NCBI RefSeq assembly: GCF_024582815.1
Contig: NZ_CP102099.1
Location: 744,001 to 808,000, forward strand
Direction of reading: 5' to 3'
Source of the DNA: Acinetobacter colistiniresistens
GTDB taxonomy: Bacteria > Pseudomonadota > Gammaproteobacteria > Pseudomonadales > Moraxellaceae
Length of the DNA stretch: 64,000 nt
This document shows, one piece after another, positions 1 to 40,107 of the stretch (position 1 is the first letter of the stretch; the number at the start of each line of letters is the position of its first letter). Made by a program: the position numbers and the translations under genes. The notes beneath the pieces are model-generated. The model was not told the origin of the DNA. It worked only from the letters and a program-made list of their open reading frames with translations, and did no database searches.

Positions 1-873
<873 letters not shown>

Positions 874-1048
874 TACAACACCCAAACAGTTGTTGTATTC
901 AAGGTAAATTCAATACATAACTTGATTTAGTGTGAAAACTAGTTACAATACCGACTCAATTAACTAATCCGTTAATAACTCTTTGGACCGTAAGTAAGGC
1001 ATACGATGAATACATCGTGATTAAGACCCGAAAGCACCACAACAGTTT
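874..1048 (+). other. 23S-5S internal transcribed spacer
   Basis: A spacer of about 175 bases between 23S and 5S rRNA. I see no tRNA cloverleaf in it. It probably contains RNase processing sites, but none can be pinpointed by eye. Confidence 0.7.
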
Positions 1049-1162
1049 GCTGGCGACAATAGCAAGAGTGAACCACCTGATCCCTTCCCGAACTCAGAAG
1101 TGAAACCTCTTAGCGCTGATGGTAGTGTGGCACTTGCCATGTGAGAGTAAGTCATCGCCAGC
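1049..1162 (+). rRNA. rrf: 5S ribosomal RNA
   Basis: A 5S rRNA of about 114 nt. The ends GCTGGCGAC and GTCATCGCCAGC pair to form helix I, and the internal CCCGAACTCAGAAGTGAAAC segment is the universal loop B/C region. It is the last gene of the rRNA operon and is followed at once by a strong terminator. Confidence 0.97.
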
Positions 1163-1173
1163 TTTTAAATACT

Positions 1174-1211
1174 AAACACCCCAGTCTCGAGAGAGGTTGG
1201 GGTGTTTTTTA
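1174..1211 (+). terminator. Rho-independent terminator of the rRNA operon
   Basis: The arms AAACACCCCA and TGGGGTGTTT form a 10-bp stem around a purine-rich loop. A run of T follows. It lies 12 bases after the 5S gene. Confidence 0.92.
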
Positions 1212-1255
1212 TGCGCGAAAGTAATGTATTGTTTGAATTTTAAACAGATATTAAA

Positions 1256-1888
1256 ATGAAAGATTTACAAAAAATTTATACTGATAAAGTAAATGAGGCA
1301 CTTTTTAGATTACAGAAGTGTGAAAGTCTTATAGAGTCATATTTTGAAATTAAAGATTTATTAGATTTAGAATCCTCAATATTACATTTACGTAAAGCAT
1401 TAGAAATATTTGCTTTAGCTTCGATCGCCCCAAATAAAATTAAATATCAAGAATACCGTGCTCAAGCTGATAAAAATCCTGACTATACAAAAGATTATAA
1501 AGCTAGCTCAATTTTAAAAGCTTTAAGTGGAATAAATTCTGACTTTTATCCTATACCTTTGTTACCAGCTGAAAAGTTAGAGAATGGAACTTGGCATTTT
1601 GATAGAAAAACAGGGAAATTCTTTGACAAAAATCAGTTTATTAAATTGTATGATCGATTAGGAAAATATTTACACGCTGATAATCCTTGGGGAAACAATA
1701 AAGAATGGGAAGATTTTGCTTTAGTAGTAAGGGATGGTATAAGTTCCATCCGTGATCTTTTTAAATTGTATTTTACTGTAATACGGGCACCAGAATTTAC
1801 AGGTGTATGGGTTCTAGAGACACGTGATAATGTGGTTCAATTTCTTGTTGCTGAATCTCAAGGTGAATTTATCGTTGAGAATTATTAA
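1256..1888 (+). CDS. Hypothetical protein, possibly HEPN-like
   Basis: A 210-residue protein I do not recognise by name. It is mostly helical and hydrophilic, without a signal peptide or membrane segment. Two things resemble HEPN/DUF4145-type proteins: an LRKALE helix at residues 45-50, and R134-x5-H140 (RLGKYLH), which fits the R-x4-6-H motif of HEPN ribonucleases. This is motif inference only. The gene is clearly more AT-rich than the core genes and sits between the rRNA terminator and an ankyrin gene, 24 bases upstream of it. The TTAAA-rich start region has only a weak ribosome site. Acquisition by transfer is likely, and a role in defence or as a toxin is possible but unproven. Confidence 0.6.
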   Translation: MKDLQKIYTDKVNEALFRLQKCESLIESYFEIKDLLDLESSILHLRKALEIFALASIAPNKIKYQEYRAQADKNPDYTKDYKASSILKALSGINSDFYPIPLLPAEKLENGTWHFDRKTGKFFDKNQFIKLYDRLGKYLHADNPWGNNKEWEDFALVVRDGISSIRDLFKLYFTVIRAPEFTGVWVLETRDNVVQFLVAESQGEFIVENY

Positions 1889-1912
1889 TTTGAAAGGTTA
1901 TTAAAGAGAATT

Positions 1913-2227
1913 ATGATGAAACTTAACGCTTTCACTCCACTACCTGACGATGATGAGGAACTGCATCTTCCTGAACTTGTGTATTGGGCTTCTCTTGGTG
2001 ATGTGGAACAAGTAGAGCAACTATTGGCAGAGGGGATAGACCCGAACCAGACCGATGACGAAGGCTATAGTGCGTTACAGGCTGCTGCCGAGAATGATCA
2101 TCTAGCGGTAGTAAAGCTGTTAGTGAGTAAAGGTGCGAATGTGGAGTATAAAGGCGAATATACAGCGCTACAGCTTGCCGAAATGGCAGAGCATCATGAT
2201 GTAGTCGCGTATCTTAAAAGTCTTTAA
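1913..2227 (+). CDS. Small ankyrin-repeat protein
   Basis: A 104-residue protein built almost entirely of ankyrin repeats. The units begin near residues 22, 50 and 83; recognisable pieces are ALQAAAENDHLAVVKLLVSKGANV and the C-terminal LAEMAEHHDVVAYL. Ankyrin repeats bind other proteins, and the partner is unknown. There is no signal peptide, so it is probably cytosolic. It starts at ATG-ATG, so either Met may be used. Its last 19 codons and its terminator are duplicated at 3345-3456, which marks a recombination boundary. Confidence 0.8.
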   Translation: MMKLNAFTPLPDDDEELHLPELVYWASLGDVEQVEQLLAEGIDPNQTDDEGYSALQAAAENDHLAVVKLLVSKGANVEYKGEYTALQLAEMAEHHDVVAYLKSL

Positions 2228-2283
2228 ATCGCAGATAAAAATGGTAGATAAAAAGAAGCCCCATCATCCTGATGGGGCTTCTT
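2172..2283. repeat. 112-bp direct repeat, copy 1
   Basis: The 3' end of the ankyrin gene, its stop codon and most of the following terminator. It matches 3345-3456 over 112 bases without gaps, with 9 mismatches counted by eye (about 92% identity). Six of the mismatches cluster in codons near the end of the gene. The two copies enclose the HTH gene. Confidence 0.93.
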
Positions 2284-2286
2284 TTT
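2250..2286. terminator. Bidirectional terminator
   Basis: A perfect 17-bp stem with a 3-base loop; the left arm is 2250-2266 and the right arm 2270-2286. A-tracts and T-tracts on the two sides let it end both the ankyrin transcript (plus) and the HTH transcript (minus). Confidence 0.92.
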
Positions 2287-2292
2287 ATATTT

Positions 2293-3255
2293 TTAGTGTC
2301 CAAGCTTAAGATCTGATGGGTCTAATTTGAACTCATCGTAAATTTCTAACTTTTTCATAATTACTGGTAAAACTTGGTGTAATGTGCGCATTCCCACTAG
2401 TAATTCGTTCATATAAATATCTGGATGAATACGTCTTTCATTAAAGCCAAGGCTTTCTGCTTCAGCTTCATAACTAATCTCTTCTTGAGAATCATAAATA
2501 AGATTTAATAGTTCTGCTCTAAGCGGAATATTTGCACGAAAGGCATTGTCTTTAACAATATTGAGCCATTTCTTATAGTTTTCTAAAGTTTCATATCTAA
2601 ATTCATTAAAATTAGGAGCTATTTCTGCTGAAATATCAATTTTACATGCGGCTAATTCCATTAAACAAGGTTCGATATTGACTGCATCTGTCTCAAATAA
2701 ATCTAAACTTTCATCATCAATAATTTCTGCGATATAAGCAGCATAAAAACCGTAAACATCATTTAGAGCTAAAAATATATTCCAAATTAAATGAGAAATA
2801 GGATGGTTTTCTATATTTCCCATGAATATTTCATATGCTTCCTCATCTGAATTTTCATAGTCAATATCTAGTTCTACTGGGAAATAGAAAGGCGAAGCAA
2901 GTCCTAGTTGCTTAAGTATATGAAATGTATGCCAACTTAAGTTTCCCAAATCATCTTGTAAAGGTACTGTGTTATATCCTGTTTCAGCTTCGTCATGAGC
3001 AACTCTTGCAAGAAAATGAATTAATTTATTCCATTTCTTCGCATCTTCTAATGAACCTGCCCTAAGAATAAATTCTGGTGATAATTCACTAATGTTTAAT
3101 AATTTTTTAAAATTATTTTGCATATCAGATGATATGTACTCTCCTTTTTTCCATTTGCTTATTTGGGTTGGAGAGACGTTAAGACGAGTAGCGAGTTCTT
3201 TTTGAGTACATGAGAGCAATTTCATTGCTAATTCTATAAGTGCTTTGCTATCCAT
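2293..3255 (-). CDS. HTH domain protein with unknown C-terminal region
   Basis: A 320-residue protein. Residues 1-50 form a Cro/cI-type helix-turn-helix (QKELATRLNVSPTQISKWKKG), so it should bind DNA. The remaining 270 residues are acidic, helical and match no family I can name. The chosen start, ATG at 3255, has an AAAGAG ribosome site about 9 bases upstream. An in-frame upstream start at 3312 would add 19 residues but lacks such a site. The gene is AT-rich and enclosed by the 112-bp repeats. It may be a regulator, an antitoxin-like protein or part of a defence module. Confidence 0.75.
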   Translation of the reverse strand: MDSKALIELAMKLLSCTQKELATRLNVSPTQISKWKKGEYISSDMQNNFKKLLNISELSPEFILRAGSLEDAKKWNKLIHFLARVAHDEAETGYNTVPLQDDLGNLSWHTFHILKQLGLASPFYFPVELDIDYENSDEEAYEIFMGNIENHPISHLIWNIFLALNDVYGFYAAYIAEIIDDESLDLFETDAVNIEPCLMELAACKIDISAEIAPNFNEFRYETLENYKKWLNIVKDNAFRANIPLRAELLNLIYDSQEEISYEAEAESLGFNERRIHPDIYMNELLVGMRTLHQVLPVIMKKLEIYDEFKLDPSDLKLGH

Positions 3256-3343
3256 TTGAATATCTCTTTTATTTACTAAATTAATTTTATATTTAGTAAA
3301 TTTATAAATCAATTAAATTATATGAAACTCTGTATGGGATTTA

Positions 3344-3400
3344 AAGCTTGCAGAAATGGCAGAGCATAGCGAAGTGGTTGCGTATCTTAAAAGTCTTTAA
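3344..3400 (+). pseudogene. 3' remnant of a second ankyrin gene
   Basis: Reading in frame to the TAA at 3398-3400 gives KLAEMAEHSEVVAYLKSL, nearly the same as the C-terminus of the ankyrin protein encoded at 1913-2227. Homology begins abruptly at 3345, and no start codon or upstream repeats are present. This is a truncated ankyrin gene end left by recombination. Confidence 0.85.
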
Positions 3401-3456
3401 ATCGCAGATAAAAATGATAGATAAAAAGAAGCCCCATCATCCTGACGGGGCTTCTT
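3345..3456. repeat. 112-bp direct repeat, copy 2
   Basis: The second copy of the ankyrin 3' end plus terminator, in the same orientation as 2172-2283 and offset by 1173 bases. Its terminator hairpin (AAGAAGCCCC and GGGGCTTCTT arms, 3427-3456) is kept, with a compensation-free C in place of T in the stem. Confidence 0.93.
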
Positions 3457-3683
3457 CATATTCAGTTTATGTCGTTGATATCCTATTAACGACCACGTCC
3501 TGTATCTGTTCTTATTCTCAATGAGACTTCCTGTCTCTCTATGGTTTATATGATAGGTGAAAAGTTTGTATTGGGATATTCGCCAATTGCTGCGATTGTT
3601 GTAGGTTTTTGCGTACATTGATATGGATAATTATTATCCATAAAAACATAATCAAGAGATTCCCTTTCTGTTTTATTCGGATC
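3457..3683. other. Intergenic stretch with a 21-bp palindrome
   Basis: No convincing gene is present. At 3622-3642 there is a perfect inverted repeat: TATGGATAAT, one T, then ATTATCCATA. A minus-strand frame of about 44 codons ending near 3545 is open and reads smoothly, but it has no start or ribosome site. It could be a gene remnant. Confidence 0.55.
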
Positions 3684-4445
3684 TTAGAAATGAATATCTA
3701 AGCCAATATACGGACCTTTAAAGTCAAACTTAAGGTCATTTTTCTTGTAGTCATCTAATTTGATATCGAGAATACGATAGCCTGCTTTTAAACCCACATC
3801 GACCAATAAATTATCAATAAAGTTGTATTGTAATTCGGCTTGCGCATCTGTGATTTTGGTATCGTTAAAATTGCTATACAACAACTCGCCCTTGGCACTG
3901 AGACCAGTAAATGGAAGTTTGACGCCCGCAGAGCCATAGATGACAGGAACTGTTTTATCGATATCTGTTTTACTGACATTCAGTGTTTTGACATCACCAT
4001 TTAAATTGGTTGCACCCAGACCGACATCTGCGCTGACGATGGTGTCCAAGATTTCATAATAGAGAATGAAATCGGTGTGATCGATGTTCAGATCGTAGAC
4101 AGGTTGTCCAGCCACTGTATTTTCAGTTTGTGATTTCAAATTTACATAGCGAATTTTGGCATTTGGAATCAATGGAATCGGGTGTTCAAATGCAAGTGAT
4201 ATCTGAGCTGAACCTTTACGATCTAAATTTTCTTCAGGTGCTGAAAGACCTGCATAAGGATTTAATAAAAGGTCATCTACACCTGTTTGATTCGATAATG
4301 ATGAGGTATTTGGTTTTGGTTGAACTTTTGCCTTCCCATCATAAAACCAATAACTCGCATCCGCTTTCACGCCTAGCATATCCGCTTGTGCCAGACTGCA
4401 AATGCCTGTCCCTAACGCAAACATTGATATTTTTAATATTTTCAT
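3684..4445 (-). CDS. TIGR04219-type outer membrane beta-barrel protein
   Basis: A 253-residue precursor. Residues 1-21 are a Sec signal peptide ending in LAQA, with cleavage expected before Asp22. The mature part alternates polar and hydrophobic residues in strands and ends in Phe (GLDIHF), the usual outer-membrane assembly signal. Length and the N-terminal sequence (ADMLGVKADASYWFYDGK) fit the TIGR04219 barrel family, which has no established substrate. It is monocistronic on the minus strand with no obvious terminator beyond the palindrome at 3622-3642. The function is probably structural or porin-like. Confidence 0.82.
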   Translation of the reverse strand: MKILKISMFALGTGICSLAQADMLGVKADASYWFYDGKAKVQPKPNTSSLSNQTGVDDLLLNPYAGLSAPEENLDRKGSAQISLAFEHPIPLIPNAKIRYVNLKSQTENTVAGQPVYDLNIDHTDFILYYEILDTIVSADVGLGATNLNGDVKTLNVSKTDIDKTVPVIYGSAGVKLPFTGLSAKGELLYSNFNDTKITDAQAELQYNFIDNLLVDVGLKAGYRILDIKLDDYKKNDLKFDFKGPYIGLDIHF

Positions 4446-4577
4446 TGCATTGTCCTAATCAGTATCAAAAACAGTAATGAATTGTTGTGAATTCATCTGT
4501 GAATGGGCGAATCATATAGTGATCTTGGAAAATATGCAGTAGTCTAAATTTAAATTTTTATAACGGGATCAAGAATA

Positions 4578-6020
4578 ATGACAGATACAAAAAATGTGGT
4601 GGATTACCCACTTTATGTCGCAGGCAAAGCAGCCACCACAGGCCAATGGCTTGAAGTTCATGATAAGTATCACAATACCGTGTATGCACGTGTCGCCTTG
4701 GCCGATACCAAAGTGCTTGAAAAAGCGATTGCAGCTGCGGTGAAAGCTGAAGCAGAAATGGCGGCCTTAAAACCCTTTCAAAAACAAAGAATCCTATTGC
4801 ACTGCGTGAAGCGTTTTAATGAACTGCGTGAAGAGTTAACAGATATTCTGATTGCAGAAGGGGGGAAACCTCGCGGTGCAGCAAGTGCCGAAGTTGAACG
4901 TCTGATCAATACCTTTCAATTGGCCGCAGATGCCGTGATACAGCTCGATGATGGGCGAATGTTAGCTCTAGCAGTGACACCTGCAGCTGCCCAGTTCAGA
5001 GGGATGGTCAAACATGTACCCATCGGTGCAGTTTCCTTAATCAGTCCGTTTAATTTTCCTCTCAACCTCGTTGCACATAAGATTGCACCAGCCATTGCTG
5101 CGGGTTGTCCTTTTGTGTTGAAACCTGCCAGTTTGACTCCGATCAGTGCCTTAATGATTGCCAAGGTATTAGCCGAAACCGATTTACCGAAAGGTTCGTG
5201 GTCGGTATTGCCTTGTGAGCGTCAGGCCGCTGATATTCTGGTCACGGATGATCGCTTCAAGTTGTTAAGCTTTACAGGTTCCGATCAGGTGGGGTGGGAC
5301 ATGAAAGCCCGTGCTGGTCGTAAGAAAGTCACCTTGGAATTGGGCGGGAATGCTGCGGTTCTGATTGATGCGGATACAGTGATTGATGACGCTTTGATTG
5401 ATCGTTTAATCAGTGCAGCCTATGGGCATGCGGGGCAGATCTGTATCAGTGTGCAGCGGATTTTAATTCATGCTGACTTATATGCCGAAGTGAAAAAGAA
5501 ACTCATCGCCAAATTGAAAAAAATTAAAGTGGATGATCCCACTTCAAGTACCACATTGGTTGGCCCCATGATTAAGGAGGCTGAAGCGATCCGTCTGAAA
5601 AAATGGCTGGATAAGGCCGAGAAAAAAGGAGCAAAAATACTGACAGGAGGACGTTTAGAAGGGGTTTTGTTCGAGCCCACTTTACTGGAAAATGTAGATG
5701 CCAAGCTGGAAATCTATAAGGATGAAGCATTTGGTCCAATTGCAATCTTGGAGAAATTTAAGGACTTTCAGCAGGGGATTGCGACCATCAATCAAAGTCG
5801 TTTTGGCTTACAGGCAGGCGTATATACGCAAAATCTGAATAAGATGCTATATGCATGGGATCATTTACATGTTGGAGGTGTGATTATTAATGATGTCCCG
5901 ACATTCCGCGTCGATAATATGCCGTATGGTGGGGTGAAGGATTCGGGCCTTGGCCGTGAAGGGATTCAGTTTGCTATTCGGGATATGCAAGAGGAAAGAT
6001 TATTAGCCATCAAACAATAA
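4578..6020 (+). CDS. NAD(P)-dependent aldehyde dehydrogenase
   Basis: A 480-residue soluble enzyme of the aldehyde dehydrogenase superfamily, oxidising an aldehyde to its acid with NAD(P). The visible active-site set is complete: oxyanion Asn159 in SPFNFP, cofactor Lys182 in LKPAS, general base Glu254 in LELGGN and nucleophile Cys289 in GQICIS. SFTGSDQVG at residues 231-239 is the usual glycine motif of the coenzyme site. Length is normal for the family. The substrate cannot be read from the sequence. It stands alone, ends in a hairpin terminator and has a weak AAGAAT-type ribosome site. Confidence 0.9.
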   Translation: MTDTKNVVDYPLYVAGKAATTGQWLEVHDKYHNTVYARVALADTKVLEKAIAAAVKAEAEMAALKPFQKQRILLHCVKRFNELREELTDILIAEGGKPRGAASAEVERLINTFQLAADAVIQLDDGRMLALAVTPAAAQFRGMVKHVPIGAVSLISPFNFPLNLVAHKIAPAIAAGCPFVLKPASLTPISALMIAKVLAETDLPKGSWSVLPCERQAADILVTDDRFKLLSFTGSDQVGWDMKARAGRKKVTLELGGNAAVLIDADTVIDDALIDRLISAAYGHAGQICISVQRILIHADLYAEVKKKLIAKLKKIKVDDPTSSTTLVGPMIKEAEAIRLKKWLDKAEKKGAKILTGGRLEGVLFEPTLLENVDAKLEIYKDEAFGPIAILEKFKDFQQGIATINQSRFGLQAGVYTQNLNKMLYAWDHLHVGGVIINDVPTFRVDNMPYGGVKDSGLGREGIQFAIRDMQEERLLAIKQ

Positions 6021-6034
6021 AAAGAGAGTGGCCC

Positions 6035-6065
6035 AAGCGGAGTAAATGCTTCGCTTGATTGTTTT
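6035..6065 (+). terminator. Terminator after the aldehyde dehydrogenase
   Basis: The arms AAGCGGAG and CTTCGCTT form an 8-bp stem with one G-T pair around TAAATG. A T-rich stretch follows. It lies 15 bases after the stop codon. Confidence 0.7.
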
Positions 6066-6397
6066 ATGTACTTGATTTTTATAGCTTGACTGTAAGGTCA
6101 AAATTACAGGCTGTTGAAAAATAATCAGTTGTTTAAAAAAGATGATTTTTTCTTGCAGAATTTACAGTAAAAAGAAATAAAAACAGGTATTGTTCGGCTA
6201 TTAAAAGCAGAAAAACAACGCCCGATCTTTAAGGAAGATGGTTTGGTTTTTTGTTTGTTTGTGCATGGAAATAACACACTCACAAGGTTGAATTTTCATA
6301 CAAACAAGACAAGATTTTTATGGCATTTTTCATGTCTGTTGGACAATAACAAACCACAAACAGTATGGAAAGGCCAGCAGGACAATTTAGGTGTTTT
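6066..6397 (+). other. Intergenic leader of the NSS transporter
   Basis: About 330 AT-rich bases with no coding potential I trust. The promoter of the transporter must lie here, but I could not pick one -10/-35 pair with confidence. No riboswitch fold is obvious. Confidence 0.45.
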
Positions 6398-7876
6398 ATG
6401 ACAGATACTCGTGAAAACTGGACATCACGATCTGGTTTTATTATTGCAGCTGTAGGTTCAGCTGTCGGTTTAGGCAATATTTGGCGTTTCCCTTACGTTG
6501 CCTATGAAAATGGCGGCGGGGCGTTTCTTATCCCTTATTTACTGGCGTTGATTACCGCTGGTTTACCTCTTTTATTCCTGGACTATGCAACGGGTCATCG
6601 TGCGCGTAATTCTCCACCAAAGGCGTATCGTGCGCTATTTAAAGGCGGAGAGACGCTGGGTTGGTGGCAGGTTTGTGTCTGTATCATCATTGGCCTGTAC
6701 TATGCCAGTGTACTGACGTGGGCGGGGAGTTATGTGTACTTCTCGATCGGTCAGACATGGGGGAGTGACCCGGAAAGTTTCTTCTTCAATACGTATTTAC
6801 AGACCTCGAAAGCGGCAGGTTTTGACCTTAATTTCGTGAGTCATTTGTTCTGGCCAATCGTCGGAATCTGGGCACTGACCTTGATCATTTTATATGGTGG
6901 GGTGAAGAAGGGCGTTGAATTATCCAACAAGATTTTCATGCCATTGTTATTCGTGTTGTTCACCATTCTGGTGGTTCAGTCATTACGTTTACCAGGTGCG
7001 GTGCAAGGCTTAAATGCTTTCTTTACCCCGAACTGGTCGGCCATGATGGATTATAAAGTGTGGTTAGCCGCATATGGCCATACTTTTTTCTCACTGTCTG
7101 TGGGCTTCGGGATCATGGTGACCTATGCCTCTTATCTCAAACCTAAAACCGATTTAACTGGCTCGGGCCTGATTGTTGGTTTTGCCAATGCCTCGACTGA
7201 AATTTTGGCAGGCATCGGAATCTTTGCAGCCTTGGGCTTTATGGCGCATACGGCAGGTAAAGAAGTACAGGACGTAGTGAGTGGTGGTATTGGTCTGGCA
7301 TTCATCGCTTTCCCGAAAATCATTTCAAGTTTGGGTGCAGGTGCTGACTTATTCGGTCTGCTGTTCTTTTCATCACTCTTCGTTGCGGGTATCTCGTCAA
7401 TGGTGAGTATCTTGGAAGTGCCGATTGCCGCAATGCAAGACAAATTGAAATGGGGGCGTACCAAAGCCGTGACCATTATTGGTGGCGGTAGTGCCTTGGT
7501 TTCGGTGTTCTTATTCTCCAGTGTCAATGCGATTAAACTGGTCGATATCGTCGATCACTTCATCAATAACATTGGTATTGTTGGCGGAGCACTCGTTTCT
7601 ATTCTGTGGATTACATGGTTTAAGCGTTCGGCTTTGATTGAACTGCGTGATCATATCAACCGCATTTCAACGATTCAACTGGGTAAAGGCTGGGCATTTA
7701 CCTTAACGGTGATCACTTCTTTGATCTTGTTAACCACCTTAAGCATGACGGTATTTAACTTGGTGAAAAACGGTTACGATAGTTATAGCATGAGCTTACA
7801 AGGCATCTTTGGATGGGGCAGTGTGATTTTCTGTGCTGTTGTTGCAATCGTCCTCAGCAAGCTCAAAGATCGCTAG
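6398..7876 (+). CDS. Sodium-dependent NSS-family amino acid transporter
   Basis: A 492-residue inner-membrane transporter of the neurotransmitter:sodium symporter (LeuT-like) family. The signature GSAVGLGNIWRFPY lies in the first membrane helix and forms the sodium and substrate site. Eleven to twelve hydrophobic helices are visible. The start at 6398 is preferred because AGG lies 6 bases upstream and the protein then begins MTDTRENWTSRSGF, as in relatives; an in-frame ATG at 6365 has no ribosome site. It is followed 10 bases later by a MetS-type small subunit, which points to methionine or alanine uptake as in the Corynebacterium MetP/MetS pair. Substrate assignment is inferred. Confidence 0.92.
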   Translation: MTDTRENWTSRSGFIIAAVGSAVGLGNIWRFPYVAYENGGGAFLIPYLLALITAGLPLLFLDYATGHRARNSPPKAYRALFKGGETLGWWQVCVCIIIGLYYASVLTWAGSYVYFSIGQTWGSDPESFFFNTYLQTSKAAGFDLNFVSHLFWPIVGIWALTLIILYGGVKKGVELSNKIFMPLLFVLFTILVVQSLRLPGAVQGLNAFFTPNWSAMMDYKVWLAAYGHTFFSLSVGFGIMVTYASYLKPKTDLTGSGLIVGFANASTEILAGIGIFAALGFMAHTAGKEVQDVVSGGIGLAFIAFPKIISSLGAGADLFGLLFFSSLFVAGISSMVSILEVPIAAMQDKLKWGRTKAVTIIGGGSALVSVFLFSSVNAIKLVDIVDHFINNIGIVGGALVSILWITWFKRSALIELRDHINRISTIQLGKGWAFTLTVITSLILLTTLSMTVFNLVKNGYDSYSMSLQGIFGWGSVIFCAVVAIVLSKLKDR

Positions 7877-15525: not shown

Positions 15526-15626
15526 GATGGCAACGTATTGAAATGTAAAAATTCATCATACTAAATATCGCTTCAGGAAAGATAGTGGACTGAAGTGTGG
15601 CACAAACTGTTTTTGGTAAGGCGATT

Positions 15627-16529
15627 TTAACTTTGATCCAAAGGATGATCTTTAAACAACTGTATGATCCATTCTATAAATACGCGTTGTCGGGGTGAAA
15701 CCCATGTTTTTGAAGGGTAAAGCAAAGAAACGGGTAAAGAGGGAACCGTGTATTGGGGTAATACAGGGCAAAGCTGACCATTTTCGATTTGTTGTAAATG
15801 AGCATAACGTGGCACCTGAATAATACCAAAGCCTTGTTCTGCTGCAGCCGAATAGGTATGCGCCCCATTGACTTGAATTAAGGAACTGAGGTCATAAAAT
15901 GCAAGCTGATGATTGATGATGAATTCTAGGGGAAGCTGTTTTTGGCGTGCGCTGGAGTAAAAACCCACCATAAAATGCTGTTTTAAATCGCTGAGTAGCT
16001 TCGGTGTGCCGTATTTGTTGAGGTATTCAGGACTCGCAAGCGTGATTTGCGGGATCTGGCCCAAGGATCTGACCACCAGTTCACTATTATTTAAATGACC
16101 AATCCGAATCACACAGTCTATGCCTTCTTTAATCAGATCAACATAGCGATCACTTTCAGTCAGTTGTAATTGTATTTGAGGATATTCACCGAGAAACTGA
16201 TGTAGTTTGGGCAGAATAAAATGCGCAGCAAAGAGACCGTGAACTTCCACCTTTAACGAGCCTTGCGGTTTGGCATGTAAAAAATCATGATCTGATTCAT
16301 TAATATAAGTCAGAATATATTTACAGCGCTGATAGTACAAATGGCCTTCGTCAGTCAGATTGACCTGTCGTGTGGTCCGAAACAGTAAGCGGGTATTTAG
16401 CTGCGATTCCAATTGTTTAATCGCATCTGTCAGGGTCGAGCGTGGCAGACTCAGAATATGAGCTGCTTTGGTAAAACTGCGCTGCTCAACCACATGCACA
16501 AATGCTGACATTGCATTTAACTTGTCCAT
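15627..16529 (-). CDS. LysR-family regulator divergent from an SDR
   Basis: A 300-residue LysR protein of the group that starts MDKLNAMSAFVHVVEQRSF. The HTH covers residues 1-60 (RSTLTDAIKQLESQL), and the effector domain follows. It is divergent from the short-chain dehydrogenase at 16653, with 123 bases between them, so it probably regulates that gene and itself. I saw no clean T-N11-A operator by eye. Confidence 0.9.
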   Translation of the reverse strand: MDKLNAMSAFVHVVEQRSFTKAAHILSLPRSTLTDAIKQLESQLNTRLLFRTTRQVNLTDEGHLYYQRCKYILTYINESDHDFLHAKPQGSLKVEVHGLFAAHFILPKLHQFLGEYPQIQLQLTESDRYVDLIKEGIDCVIRIGHLNNSELVVRSLGQIPQITLASPEYLNKYGTPKLLSDLKQHFMVGFYSSARQKQLPLEFIINHQLAFYDLSSLIQVNGAHTYSAAAEQGFGIIQVPRYAHLQQIENGQLCPVLPQYTVPSLPVSLLYPSKTWVSPRQRVFIEWIIQLFKDHPLDQS

Positions 16530-16652
16530 AGGCTTGATTGTTTTGTTCGCTCTATTCGGATAAAGAAGCCGAAATTTGATGGATTATCTTGTTCTCACTG
16601 AACAGTATCATAGATCGTATTCCGTGATAAGTTGACTTGAGTGAGGTTAAAC

Positions 16653-17399
16653 ATGAATATGCCATCAAATCATAAGAAAGTAATTTTGATTACAGGAGCA
16701 TCCCGAGGAATTGGTGCTTTTACCGCAACCTTATTGGCACAGCAAGGCCATCAAATCGTGATTAATTATGCACGCAATGATTTAGAAGCAAATCAGGTCG
16801 TTGAAAAAATTACAGCTGCGGGTGGTACAGCAAGTGCATTTAAAGCAGATATCAGCCAGTCGCATCAGGTTGAGCGGCTATTTGACTATGTCATGCAAAA
16901 CTACGGGCGAATGGATATTCTGATTAATAATGCAGGCATTATGTGCTTTCAAAAAATTGAAACTTTAGATGATGAAACTATTGAGAAGGTTCTGGCGATT
17001 AATTTAAAAGGTAGTTTATATACCATGCGAGAAGCGGCGAAACGACTTGAGCAGGGTGGGAAAATTATCAATCTCTCTAGTAGTGTGATTGGTATGAAGC
17101 TGGAAGGGTATGGTATTTATAGTGCCTCTAAAGCAGCCATAGAAGCTTTGACGGCTATCCTTGCCAAAGAATTAAGAGGCAGAAACATTAGCGTTAATGC
17201 GATTGCACCAGGACCTACAGCAACTGAACTATTCTTTGAAGGGAAGAGTGAGGCATTAATTGAACAGTTGGCCAAAGCAGCCCCTTTAGAGCGTTTAGGC
17301 ACAGTGGAAGATATTGCTGCGGTGCTTGATTTTGCTGTGAGTGATGCGAGTAACTGGATTAATGCACAGGTGATTAGAGCCAATGGAGGCATTATCTAG
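16653..17399 (+). CDS. Short-chain dehydrogenase/reductase
   Basis: A 248-residue SDR with the Rossmann motif TGASRGIGA near residue 14, NNAG in the middle and the catalytic Y-x-x-x-K as YSASK with the preceding Ser. It reduces or oxidises a carbonyl with NAD(P)H, probably NADPH given the ARND segment after strand 2. Start ATG at 16653 follows GAGG by 6 bases; a GTG at 16641 overlaps this site. Substrate unknown. The divergent LysR gene is its likely regulator. Confidence 0.9.
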   Translation: MNMPSNHKKVILITGASRGIGAFTATLLAQQGHQIVINYARNDLEANQVVEKITAAGGTASAFKADISQSHQVERLFDYVMQNYGRMDILINNAGIMCFQKIETLDDETIEKVLAINLKGSLYTMREAAKRLEQGGKIINLSSSVIGMKLEGYGIYSASKAAIEALTAILAKELRGRNISVNAIAPGPTATELFFEGKSEALIEQLAKAAPLERLGTVEDIAAVLDFAVSDASNWINAQVIRANGGII

Positions 17400-17422
17400 T
17401 CATGTATCCTTCTCAACATAAA

Positions 17423-33805: not shown

Positions 33806-35233
33806 ATGACTTTCCAATATCAACGTTTAGCAGAACAGCTGGCGCGTAAAATTTACCAGCATGAGTTACAGCCCCAACAAAAGTTAAGTTCTTTAAGGGA
33901 ATTTGCACGTCAGCAAAGCATTAGTTTGAGTACTGCCCAGCAATGCTATGAACTGCTAGAAGCCAAGGGACTGATCTATGTAAAAGCCAAATCAGGCTAT
34001 TTCGTTAATTCGAGACAATATCAAAGTGCTGTTCCTGATAGCCCGCAGTTTGAATCCAAAGCTCGACAGGTTTCAAATTTAGATTTGCAAAACCAAATTC
34101 AAACCGCATCGATTCAAAACAATTTAACGCCTTTGGGGGCAATTCAATTGTCTCCTCATTTGATTCCTGTGGATGGTCTACGTCGTTCTCTGCAACGTGC
34201 CTTGAAACACTGCCAACCTGAGGATTTTTTATATTGTAATAAACAGGGACATCAACATCTGCGCCAAGCGTTGTCCGATCATTGGCGTGAAGATGGGATT
34301 TATGTGGCGACAGAAGATATTTTTATTAGCAATGGCTGTATGCCCGCTTTATCGCTGTTGATTCAACAGATCAGTCAAGAAGGCGACAGTATTTTGCTTC
34401 CAACTCCGACCTTTAATGGTCAGTTGCAAATGTTGGCCAGCCTGAAGCGCAACATTATCGAAATTCCTGCCGATCATCGTGGTATTGATCTGGAACGTTT
34501 AGAGTTTTTTATGCAGCAGGGCAGTGCCAAGCTGTGTTTGCTTACCGCCAATTTCCAGAATCCATTGGGCTACTGTCTCAGCAATGAACAGAAACAGCAG
34601 ATCGCGCGACTGGCACAGAAATATCAATGCTTTATTTTGGAGGATGATATTTATGGCGAATGTAGCTTCCAAAAAGAACGGCCTTTGCCAGTGCGTTATT
34701 GGGATCAGGAAGGCTATGTCATCTGGTGTGGCTCGGTGTCTAAATCCTTATCCACCGCCTATCGAGTAGGATGGTTTTGTTTAGGGCGACAGTTACAGCA
34801 TTTACGTCCGCAGCTTTTGGCCAATAATGTCGGTGTGAATACACCACTACAGTTGGGCTTGGCAGATTTTATTTACAGTCGTGGTTATCGGGAGCATCTG
34901 GATCGCTTAAGACCCAAGTTGATGCAGCAGGTGGAACAGTATCGAGCCTATATTCTAGAGTGCTTTCACGGTATTCCGATTGCGCTGAGCCAATCACAAG
35001 GTGGCTATGCCTTATGGATGCAACTACCAGAAAGTATTACGGGTTTGGAGCTCTATTATATGGCGCAAGCACAGGGGATCAATATTGTACCTGGCGAGGT
35101 GTTTGGCGAAGACCGTCGTTATCAGCATTTTATTCGATTAAATGCAGGGCATGCATTAACGGCAGAAATCCGTCATGCCATTCAAAAGTTAGCGCAGTGG
35201 ACACAAGCCAGTTTGAGTTCATTAGAGCGTTAA
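33806..35233 (+). CDS. MocR/GntR-type regulator with aminotransferase-like domain
   Basis: A 475-residue protein with an N-terminal GntR winged helix (residues 1-70, SLREFARQQSISLSTAQQCYELLEAKGLIYV) fused to a fold-type I PLP aminotransferase-like domain. The PLP Lys lies in SVSKSLSTAYRVGW. Such MocR proteins use PLP as effector or cofactor to control amine, vitamin B6 or amino acid genes. It is 39 bases upstream of a PEP-mutase-family gene in the same direction and may be in one operon. The target is unknown. Confidence 0.9.
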   Translation: MTFQYQRLAEQLARKIYQHELQPQQKLSSLREFARQQSISLSTAQQCYELLEAKGLIYVKAKSGYFVNSRQYQSAVPDSPQFESKARQVSNLDLQNQIQTASIQNNLTPLGAIQLSPHLIPVDGLRRSLQRALKHCQPEDFLYCNKQGHQHLRQALSDHWREDGIYVATEDIFISNGCMPALSLLIQQISQEGDSILLPTPTFNGQLQMLASLKRNIIEIPADHRGIDLERLEFFMQQGSAKLCLLTANFQNPLGYCLSNEQKQQIARLAQKYQCFILEDDIYGECSFQKERPLPVRYWDQEGYVIWCGSVSKSLSTAYRVGWFCLGRQLQHLRPQLLANNVGVNTPLQLGLADFIYSRGYREHLDRLRPKLMQQVEQYRAYILECFHGIPIALSQSQGGYALWMQLPESITGLELYYMAQAQGINIVPGEVFGEDRRYQHFIRLNAGHALTAEIRHAIQKLAQWTQASLSSLER

Positions 35234-35272
35234 GGTCCAATCCACCATCAGAATGAAAAGAGGGATAAAACA

Positions 35273-36090
35273 ATGCAACCTACAATTGCTGAGAAAAGAA
35301 AATATTTCGTGACCTGCATCAGACAGGCTGTTTTGTGTTGCCCAATCCATGGGATGCAGGCAGTGCCAGAATGTTGCAGCAACTTGGTTATCACGCCTTG
35401 GCAACAAGCAGTGCAGGTTATGCTTGGTCGTGTGGCAAGACCGATGGGCAGTTGTCACGCGCAGAGGTACTGGCTCATCTGCGCACTCTGGTTCAATCAA
35501 CCGACCTGCCGGTAAATGCAGATTTTGAAAGTGGTTTTGCCGAGACCATTGAGGGCGTGTTTGAAAGCGTCAGTATGGCAATCGCAACGGGTGTTGCGGG
35601 TATTTCGATTGAAGACTCGACCGGCAATATGGAACAACCCTTACGAGAGCTTGAAGATGCGGTTGCGCGGATAGCTGCCGCACGTCAAGCGATTGATGCA
35701 AGTGGTGAAGATGTGATGCTGATCGGACGTGCTGAAAACTTCTTTGTTGGTGTTCCTGATCTAGAGGATACCCTTACGCGACTGAAAGCCTATGCTGCTG
35801 CGGGTGCAGATTGTCTTTATGCACCTGGTATCAAAACAGCTGAGCAAATTGTTGCGGTGGTACAAGCTGTGGCCCCCAAGCCCGTCAATGTTCTGATCGC
35901 TTGGGACAGTGAACTGAGTGTGCAAACACTGGCATCCTTAGGCGTTCGCCGAATCAGTGTCGGGAGTGCATTGGCGCGGACGGCATGGAACAGTTTTATT
36001 CAGGCAGCCAGCTCGATTGCTGAAACCGGCCGTTTTAACTGTTTTGCAGAGAATATCTCTGGGGCGGAACTGAATAAAAGATTGGGCTAA
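35273..36090 (+). pseudogene. Isocitrate lyase/PEP mutase family gene with frameshift
   Basis: Related proteins of about 270 residues read through NPWDAGSARM in one frame. Here the start MQPTIAEKRKYF (ATG at 35273, AGAGGG site upstream) is in one frame, and RDLHQTGCF followed by VLPNPWDAGSARM to the stop at 36090 is in another. One base is missing at about 35306-35308, next to a TTT run, so the gene is split after 12 codons. The rest, including NADFESGFAET, EDSTGN and the C-terminus, is intact. Either the gene is dead or the assembly lost one T. Translation from GTG at 35335 would make a shortened protein. Confidence 0.85.
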
Positions 36091-36140
36091 TAGCCGCCAA
36101 GCGATTGGCGCATTGACGGACCATAATGAAATCAGCTGAA

Positions 36141-39661: not shown

Positions 39662-40107
39662 GAATCAGAACAGTAAAAAGCAGAGGCGTAGTATAGCCGA
39701 AATAGGTTTTTTTAGGCGTTAAAATTCTATTGGAACATCAACGAGATGTAGGGCGTCAAAGACAAAGTGTGAAATTCGCTGAGAACTTGGCAAGACTCCG
39801 TTAAGTTTGCACTGCCCAATTTTTTGAAAGTTTATATATTTACGTGCAGGCAATGTCTTACTTTTGACAGGGCAAAAGTAACAAAACCTCTTTGTTCGGC
39901 TGACTGCATATTCTGCGCAATTTCAAAGCAAGGCTTTGAAAGCAGCGCAAGGCAACCAAACAGGCAACATCCATGTCGCCTCTACTCCAGCAAACGTTTA
40001 CGAGCGTCTAAATTTGGGATTTGCCTAAGCAGATGTAATCAAGAGCTTAATGGATGTAATTATTTAATTTAGACGTTTGTTTAGATGCCGTTGGATAACC
40101 TTTCACA
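39662..40107. other. 446-bp spacer with repeat-like coding remnant
   Basis: No intact gene. The central part (about 39850-40025) reads without stops in one plus-strand frame, giving LTAYSAQFQSKALKA, then GNQTGNIHVASTPANVYER and a stop after NLGFA, but it lacks a start and is preceded by a stop. I recall similar peptides from several Acinetobacter annotations, so this may be a dispersed degenerate repeat. A 10-bp inverted repeat (CGTCTAAATT at 40005, AATTTAGACG at 40066) flanks its end. The mutY promoter should lie at 39662-39720. Confidence 0.5.

Follow-up and report, generated by a model that had tools for sequence, protein, structure and literature searches.

Gene turnover between the 5S rRNA and ankyrin genes of Acinetobacter, and a repeated ankyrin gene end beside an rRNA operon

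The locus downstream of 5S rRNA

The window (the whole 64,000 nt stretch of an Acinetobacter colistiniresistens genome analysed here) starts within a 23S rRNA gene. Downstream of the 5S gene, the order is orf210 (+), an ankyrin gene (ank, +), an HTH gene (−), a second ank tail, a gene for a TIGR04219-family outer-membrane protein (−) and an aldehyde dehydrogenase gene (+). The features discussed below are as follows.

1..874, + strand: 3′ part of the 23S rRNA gene (Rfam RF02541, 973.6 bits), the proposed left recombination anchor
1049..1163, + strand: 5S rRNA gene (Rfam RF00001), the left edge of the hotspot
1164..1212, + strand: rrn terminator region, within which (near 1182) the closest genome diverges from the window
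1213..1915, + strand: foreign block 1, orf210 with its leader, 97.7% identical to A. junii over 700 bp
1256..1888, + strand: orf210, 210 aa, possibly HEPN-type
1913..2227, + strand: ankyrin gene copy 1, complete and foreign, 104 aa (Ank_2, E 6.9e-15)
2248..2288, no strand: terminator copy 1, an inverted repeat forming a perfect palindrome between the convergent ank and HTH genes
2284..3341, − strand: foreign block 2, the HTH gene with its upstream region, 83.7% identical over 878 bp to Acinetobacter sp. A47
2293..3255, − strand: Cro/C1-type HTH gene, 320 aa (HTH_3, E 3.1e-6; no C-terminal assignment)
3342..3400, + strand: native ankyrin stump, about the last 19 codons (3342–3620 is 96.1% identical to A. 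colistiniresistens NIPH 2036)
3421..3461, no strand: terminator copy 2, common to the ank stump and the small RNA
3423..3543, − strand: conserved core of a putative Rsm-type small-RNA gene (fold z −3.74), the right edge of the exchanged region
3684..4445, − strand: TIGR04219-family outer-membrane protein, the first conserved core gene (3684–7494 is 97.2% identical to NIPH 2036)

An earlier note on this DNA had reported that 2172–2283 recurs at 3345–3456 in the same orientation, ungapped and with about nine mismatches. The count is exactly nine (103 of 112 positions identical), and a repeat search extended the match to 120 nt at 90% identity (2169–2288 and 3342–3461). When the next 10 kb was shuffled 20 times in dinucleotide blocks, no match to the 112 bp segment exceeded 50/112. 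The description of the segment as the last 19 ankyrin codons plus a terminator was borne out, as it forms the end of the 104 aa Ank_2 gene at 1913–2227, and the AT-rich HTH gene noted between the copies is the Cro/C1-type gene at 2293–3255 on the minus strand. The GC content of the patch, which the note had proposed comparing with the core, is 30.0% for orf210 and 31.7% for the HTH gene, against 44.8% for 3684–64000. The DNA after copy 2 belongs to a predicted minus-strand small-RNA gene that the note does not mention; the 112 bp repeat is therefore the ank end together with the terminator used by the convergent ank and predicted small-RNA genes. The copy-1 terminator, unlike that of copy 2, is a perfect palindrome and may represent two terminators joined head to head.

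Origins of the ankyrin copies and the foreign blocks

The closest genome found was that of A. colistiniresistens NIPH 2036, whose contig begins at the equivalent of window position 974. It is 97.2% identical to the window over 3684–7494, 96.1% over copy 2 and the following DNA (3342–3620), and 86.7% over the copy-1 ank gene; neither orf210 nor the HTH gene had a match in the NIPH 2036 locus. Because NIPH 2036 matches copy 2 so much better than copy 1, it is copy 2 that, judged by identity, remains as a stump from the native ankyrin gene, and copy 1 is complete and of foreign origin. The earlier note's suggestion of a duplication that carried cargo is therefore not supported, the copies being of different origin, and the same identities disfavour a target-site duplication. 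Among the named loci (the best 80 of 105 confirmed stretches), the best match of the copy-1 ank gene was A. courvalinii (89.8%). For the 120 bp tails alone the order is less clear-cut, copy 1 matching A. courvalinii (94.8%), and copy 2 matching A. proteolyticus (96.7%) and NIPH 2036 (95.0%).

The window and NIPH 2036 agree for about 19 bases past 5S (to about 1182) and then differ within the rrn terminator, which would place the left crossover there or in the rRNA genes. The foreign stretch starts no later than the rrn terminator and stops within the native ank gene, near codon 85 (3341/3342). NIPH 2036 carries other cargo 5′ of its ank gene, a 148 aa ORF and, by eye, an acetyltransferase-like gene split by two transposase-like ORFs.

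The identity of block 1 to A. junii (97.7%) ends at the ank start codon, and the ank genes there are just 82–88% alike. Both blocks are without a homologue at the same place in all four control genomes, and they are the only stretches of at least 300 bp after 5S missing from all four; for one control the segment compared began only downstream of 5S, and the count covers stretches of the window, not insertions in the other genomes. Three further accessory stretches of at least 300 bp occur in the remaining 60 kb of the window (15586–17418, 35201–36136 and 39707–40100), each absent from two or three of the four controls.

Relatives of orf210 were found in nine of 175 genomes of the genus, that of the window included, and all adjoin 5S or an ankyrin gene, at three of the six rrn operons (A, B and F of sites A–F). 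Six adjoin ank (five with 5S in view; the site A labels of genomes G073 and G160 rest mainly on the ank neighbour), one lies at site B (G089), and the two at site F (G156 and G158) are weak, broken fragments. In G089 the similarity begins just past the rrn terminator, with 95/100 identities over the first block. The G089 copy (locus L232, from about 305) is cut after 32–34 residues by unrelated DNA, maybe the end of an insertion sequence. In an alignment of 25 orf210 sequences, R134 is nearly invariant and H140 invariant, giving the R-x4-6-H pattern that is the HEPN motif, so that orf210 is possibly a HEPN-type (AbiU2-like) protein. Foldseek returned no structural match at E 0.001 or better, and a PHROG family of unknown function matches the protein.

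Block 2 matched only Acinetobacter sp. A47 among the best 80 of 105 loci, at about 84%. In A47 the HTH gene lies between 5S and a complete ank gene, and its reading frame holds a stop inside the match. The HTH protein has 878 homologues, and its structure model has a pLDDT of 76.7, with residues 256–298 under 50. Relatives in two genomes (G065 and G071, 57–60% identity) have no rRNA or ank gene within the 13–14 kb read, so the HTH gene is not cargo of rrn flanks only. Carriage by mobile elements was considered and rejected: 72,556 plasmid records gave three matches to orf210 and five to HTH, all below 60% identity, and no record of a phage collection matched orf210 at E 1e-5. No recombinase or integrase was found among orf210, ank and HTH (Pfam, NCBIfam and PHROGs, E 0.001).

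Variable zones and a predicted small RNA beside rRNA operons

The ank gene was found in 142 of the 175 genomes (E 1e-15). A 5S gene lies upstream of it in 55 of the 80 named loci (best 80 of 105), the other 25 reaching a contig edge first. The distance between 5S and ank in these 55 ranges from 118 to 5549 bp, and seven gaps under 250 bp are nearly empty. All 80 zones and the two window genes yielded 145 cargo ORFs of 60 aa or more (some of them not genes) in 74 clusters, 58 of which are singletons; one cluster, with an MFS transporter as its longest member, is stably resident at 22 loci. Cargo picked for closer inspection included a bSEFIR/TIR protein (280 bits; A. terrae, L129 2011–2769), the C-terminal part of Shedu SduA (199 bits; A. 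kyonggiensis, L168 1212–1640), and GNAT, GST and methyltransferase genes, many others being without a match. The defence scan covered three window proteins (PADLOC) and ten hand-picked cargo proteins and gives no estimate of enrichment. As the collections hold one genome per species, the comparison of cargo is between species.

These results support the 5S–ankyrin zone as a hotspot of gene turnover. The small integration hotspot put forward by the earlier note thus stands in so far as the flanks are conserved and the cargo differs, but its edges are 5S rRNA and ankyrin, not two ankyrin ends. Alignment of the locus downstream of 5S, which the note had proposed, gave variable cargo, but not between paired ankyrin ends; the ank–HTH–ank-tail layout was seen in the window alone among the loci compared. 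The contrary outcome, one arrangement everywhere with core-like divergence, did not occur.

The six 5S genes of the window's genome are 100% identical. A single rule was applied to both flanks of the six operons in six genomes. Of the 31 5′ flanks that could be measured, 30 are conserved right up to the operon and the remaining one gives 150 bp; five others gave no value, namely site A of G017, where the contig ends, and, in both G161 and G168, sites C and E, whose labels follow the downstream side. On the 3′ side (36 flanks) the variable zone spans 61–4615 bp with a median of 552, where 61 bp is a floor because the first 60 bases were left out. More than 300 bp of unshared DNA is present in 23 of the 36 (site A 6/6, B 6/6, C 2/6, D 3/6, E 2/6, F 4/6), and seven lie at the floor, with no measurable variable zone. 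The 3′ and 5′ flanks differ with p 5e-13 (Mann–Whitney, related genomes treated as independent). Eight genomes gave a like picture, except that site E of G076 gave no boundary. By a rough count, the upstream flank of rrn C in G161 and G168 (L269 and L285) resembles that of rrn E in other genomes, as if both operons had recombined.

Copies or remnants of ank occur at site B in nine genomes (G018, G179, G176, G189, G163, G193, G027, G166 and G076) and at site C in one (G195); one ank gene of G176 is without a site assignment, and a second in G131 was left out since it may be one locus on two overlapping contigs. The orf210 and ank families each occupy more than one rrn site, and rrn 3′ zones look like parking places for swappable genes. 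Broken ank genes at sites A or B (G018, G189, G163 and G076; L239, L190, L076 and L083) are signs of repeated decay. A second rrn operon of the window's genome (site B, about 678–680 kb on contig G000:C1) is followed by a cargo gene whose N-terminal part is like HNH defence effectors (L084 6475–7197, minus strand), then by an ank remnant and the small RNA. This site-B cargo is unrelated to that of site A.

The minus strand after copy 2 folds with a z-score of −3.74 into a structure that presents AGGA in hairpin loops and includes a terminator. As repeated GGA motifs in loops, together with an own terminator, mark CsrA/RsmA-binding small RNAs, the gene at 3423–3543 is predicted to encode an RNA of Rsm type. 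Its scores against the Rsm families of Rfam fell below cut-off (RsmY 18.5 bits, cut-off 57), and at its cut-offs Rfam found rRNA only in the whole window. The 48 rrn flanks compared contain 28 relatives, of which 26 carry exactly four GGA motifs. These relatives lie beside the operons of sites A and B (e.g., L084 6166–6294, at B) and, once or twice, within the core that follows site D (e.g., L195). A 90 bp element after copy 2, which recurs at a second rrn site and had been considered as a site-specific recombination site, proved to be part of this gene.

We take ACIAD0018 of A. baylyi ADP1 to be this ank gene. In the available part of Fakhry et al. (2017, PMC5568370), small RNAs that regulate RsmA are predicted in ADP1, one of them between ACIAD0018 and ACIAD0019. 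The ADP1 RNA of that account has GGA motifs and the same orientation (→ ← ←) as ank, small RNA and outer-membrane protein gene here, and the present family differs from it in occurring beside two rrn operons and within the core at a third. A C4-type ‘Group 1’ RNA was rejected as an identity, the available part of PMC5320573 describing the phage-C4 type and Rfam giving only rRNA for the window.

The small-RNA cores at sites A and B of one genome are 97.2% identical, against 94.5% over all A–B pairs, and 720 of 40320 pairings reach 97.2%. The figure of 720 hinges on the identity of the A cores in four genomes, and a genome's own B strictly beats every foreign A in only two of eight cases. These values hint at concerted evolution of the small RNA.

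Routes to the present arrangement

We consider it probable that cargo is exchanged by recombination anchored in the rRNA genes, without an integrase of its own, and that in the window the right end was non-homologous. The window is a mosaic of foreign block 1, the foreign copy-1 ank gene and foreign block 2 set in native DNA, the native sequence taking over again at 3342, within the former ank gene. Also in favour are the differing cargo of relatives, the variable zones on the 3′ side of other operons and the presence of the orf210 and ank families at several rrn sites. Some observations weigh against such exchange: the HTH relatives in G065 and G071 lie away from rRNA and ank genes in the 13–14 kb read; the best match of the copy-2 tail is A. 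proteolyticus, the sister genome coming second; seven of the 36 3′ flanks have no measurable variable zone and site C is variable in just two of six genomes; and two of the three orf210 cases at sites B and F are weak, broken fragments.

A Campbell-type insertion, in which circular DNA with the HTH gene and an ankyrin end enters the resident ank gene by a single crossover, would yield an HTH gene between ank and a directly repeated ank tail, and block 2 is indeed bounded by the repeat. It is close to the earlier note's idea of insertion via a shared ankyrin 3′ end, which is possible. However, the whole copy-1 ank gene is foreign (86.7% to the sister) and abuts foreign block 1, so that a second event would be needed, and no integrase or replication gene is among the matches of orf210, ank and HTH; we regard this route as unlikely. 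Somewhat less probable still is that the rrn flanks within one cell exchanged DNA with each other, by gene conversion between operons, in place of import from another species. The ank remnants at sites A and B of several genomes and the closer within-genome identity of the small-RNA cores (97.2% against 94.5%, reached by 720 of 40320 pairings) are in its favour, but the latter figure depends on the four identical A cores, with the own B strictly best in only two of eight. Moreover, the near identity of block 1 to another species (A. junii) calls for transfer between species, the ank genes at two sites of G179 differ greatly (89% and 70% to that of the window), and the site-B cargo of the window's genome (L084) is unrelated to site A. 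Tandem duplication of ank with cargo, followed by decay of one copy, would account for two copies in direct orientation that are 91% alike over 115 bp, but each is nearer to other species (94.8% to A. courvalinii; 96.7% to A. proteolyticus and 95.0% to A. colistiniresistens) than to the other (90%), making this origin highly improbable.

Under rRNA-anchored exchange, donor Acinetobacter DNA would be taken up, most simply by natural transformation, for which the genus is known, and the rRNA end of the donor fragment would pair with one of the near-identical operons. Crossovers in rRNA would not be visible, because rRNA is nearly identical everywhere. The other crossover could produce a clean swap by falling in shared DNA (ank, terminator or small RNA), or it could lie at a point without homology. 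The window's right end would have fallen inside the native ank gene, leaving the last ~19 codons of that gene, the terminator and the small RNA as a second ‘copy’. The orf210–ank pair and the HTH gene may have arrived together, or HTH may have been inserted separately; no donor with orf210–ank–HTH was found among the genomes compared. Judging by titles in the references of PMC8116780, homology-facilitated illegitimate recombination is documented for Acinetobacter transformation. That process has the same combination of one homologous and one non-homologous end that the right junction at 3341 suggests, although here it is inferred from sequence.

Integrase-borne islands restore the 3′ end of their target gene and, as here, have that gene end repeated at both ends of the inserted piece. 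They differ in that no integrase was found here (Pfam, NCBIfam, PHROGs) and the complete upstream copy is itself foreign; an integrase-borne island or prophage was rejected, as the piece holds no integrase or recombinase and the repeats, of separate origins, are not one duplicated attachment site. Chromosomal hotspots are known in which genes turn over between conserved neighbours, and the present zones share with them constant flanks and cargo that differs by genome, with small AT-rich, sometimes defence-like genes. Many of the hotspots described so far rely on tRNA genes and integrases. Here, in contrast to the known chromosomal hotspots, the constant flank is an rRNA operon, and such zones occur at other rrn operons too, with one cargo family at several. 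A search of titles and abstract openings, outside which most subscription papers lay, found no publication on a hotspot 3′ of rRNA operons in Acinetobacter among the entries listed.

More tentatively, the rrn 3′ flanks of Acinetobacter may be shared addresses for swappable genes: as multi-copy homology anchors, they could, with no mobile element involved, allow a single fragment to enter next to any one of six operons in whatever species, with cargo that includes single-gene antiphage-like cassettes (bSEFIR, Shedu, HNH effector-like and possibly HEPN). Draft genomes would miss such cargo, since contigs tend to break at rRNA operons, as in the 25 of 80 loci (best 80 of 105) that ended before 5S. 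If, as it appears, the rRNA operon itself is the constant anchor, this would explain how small, partly defence-like genes pass between species without a mobile element.
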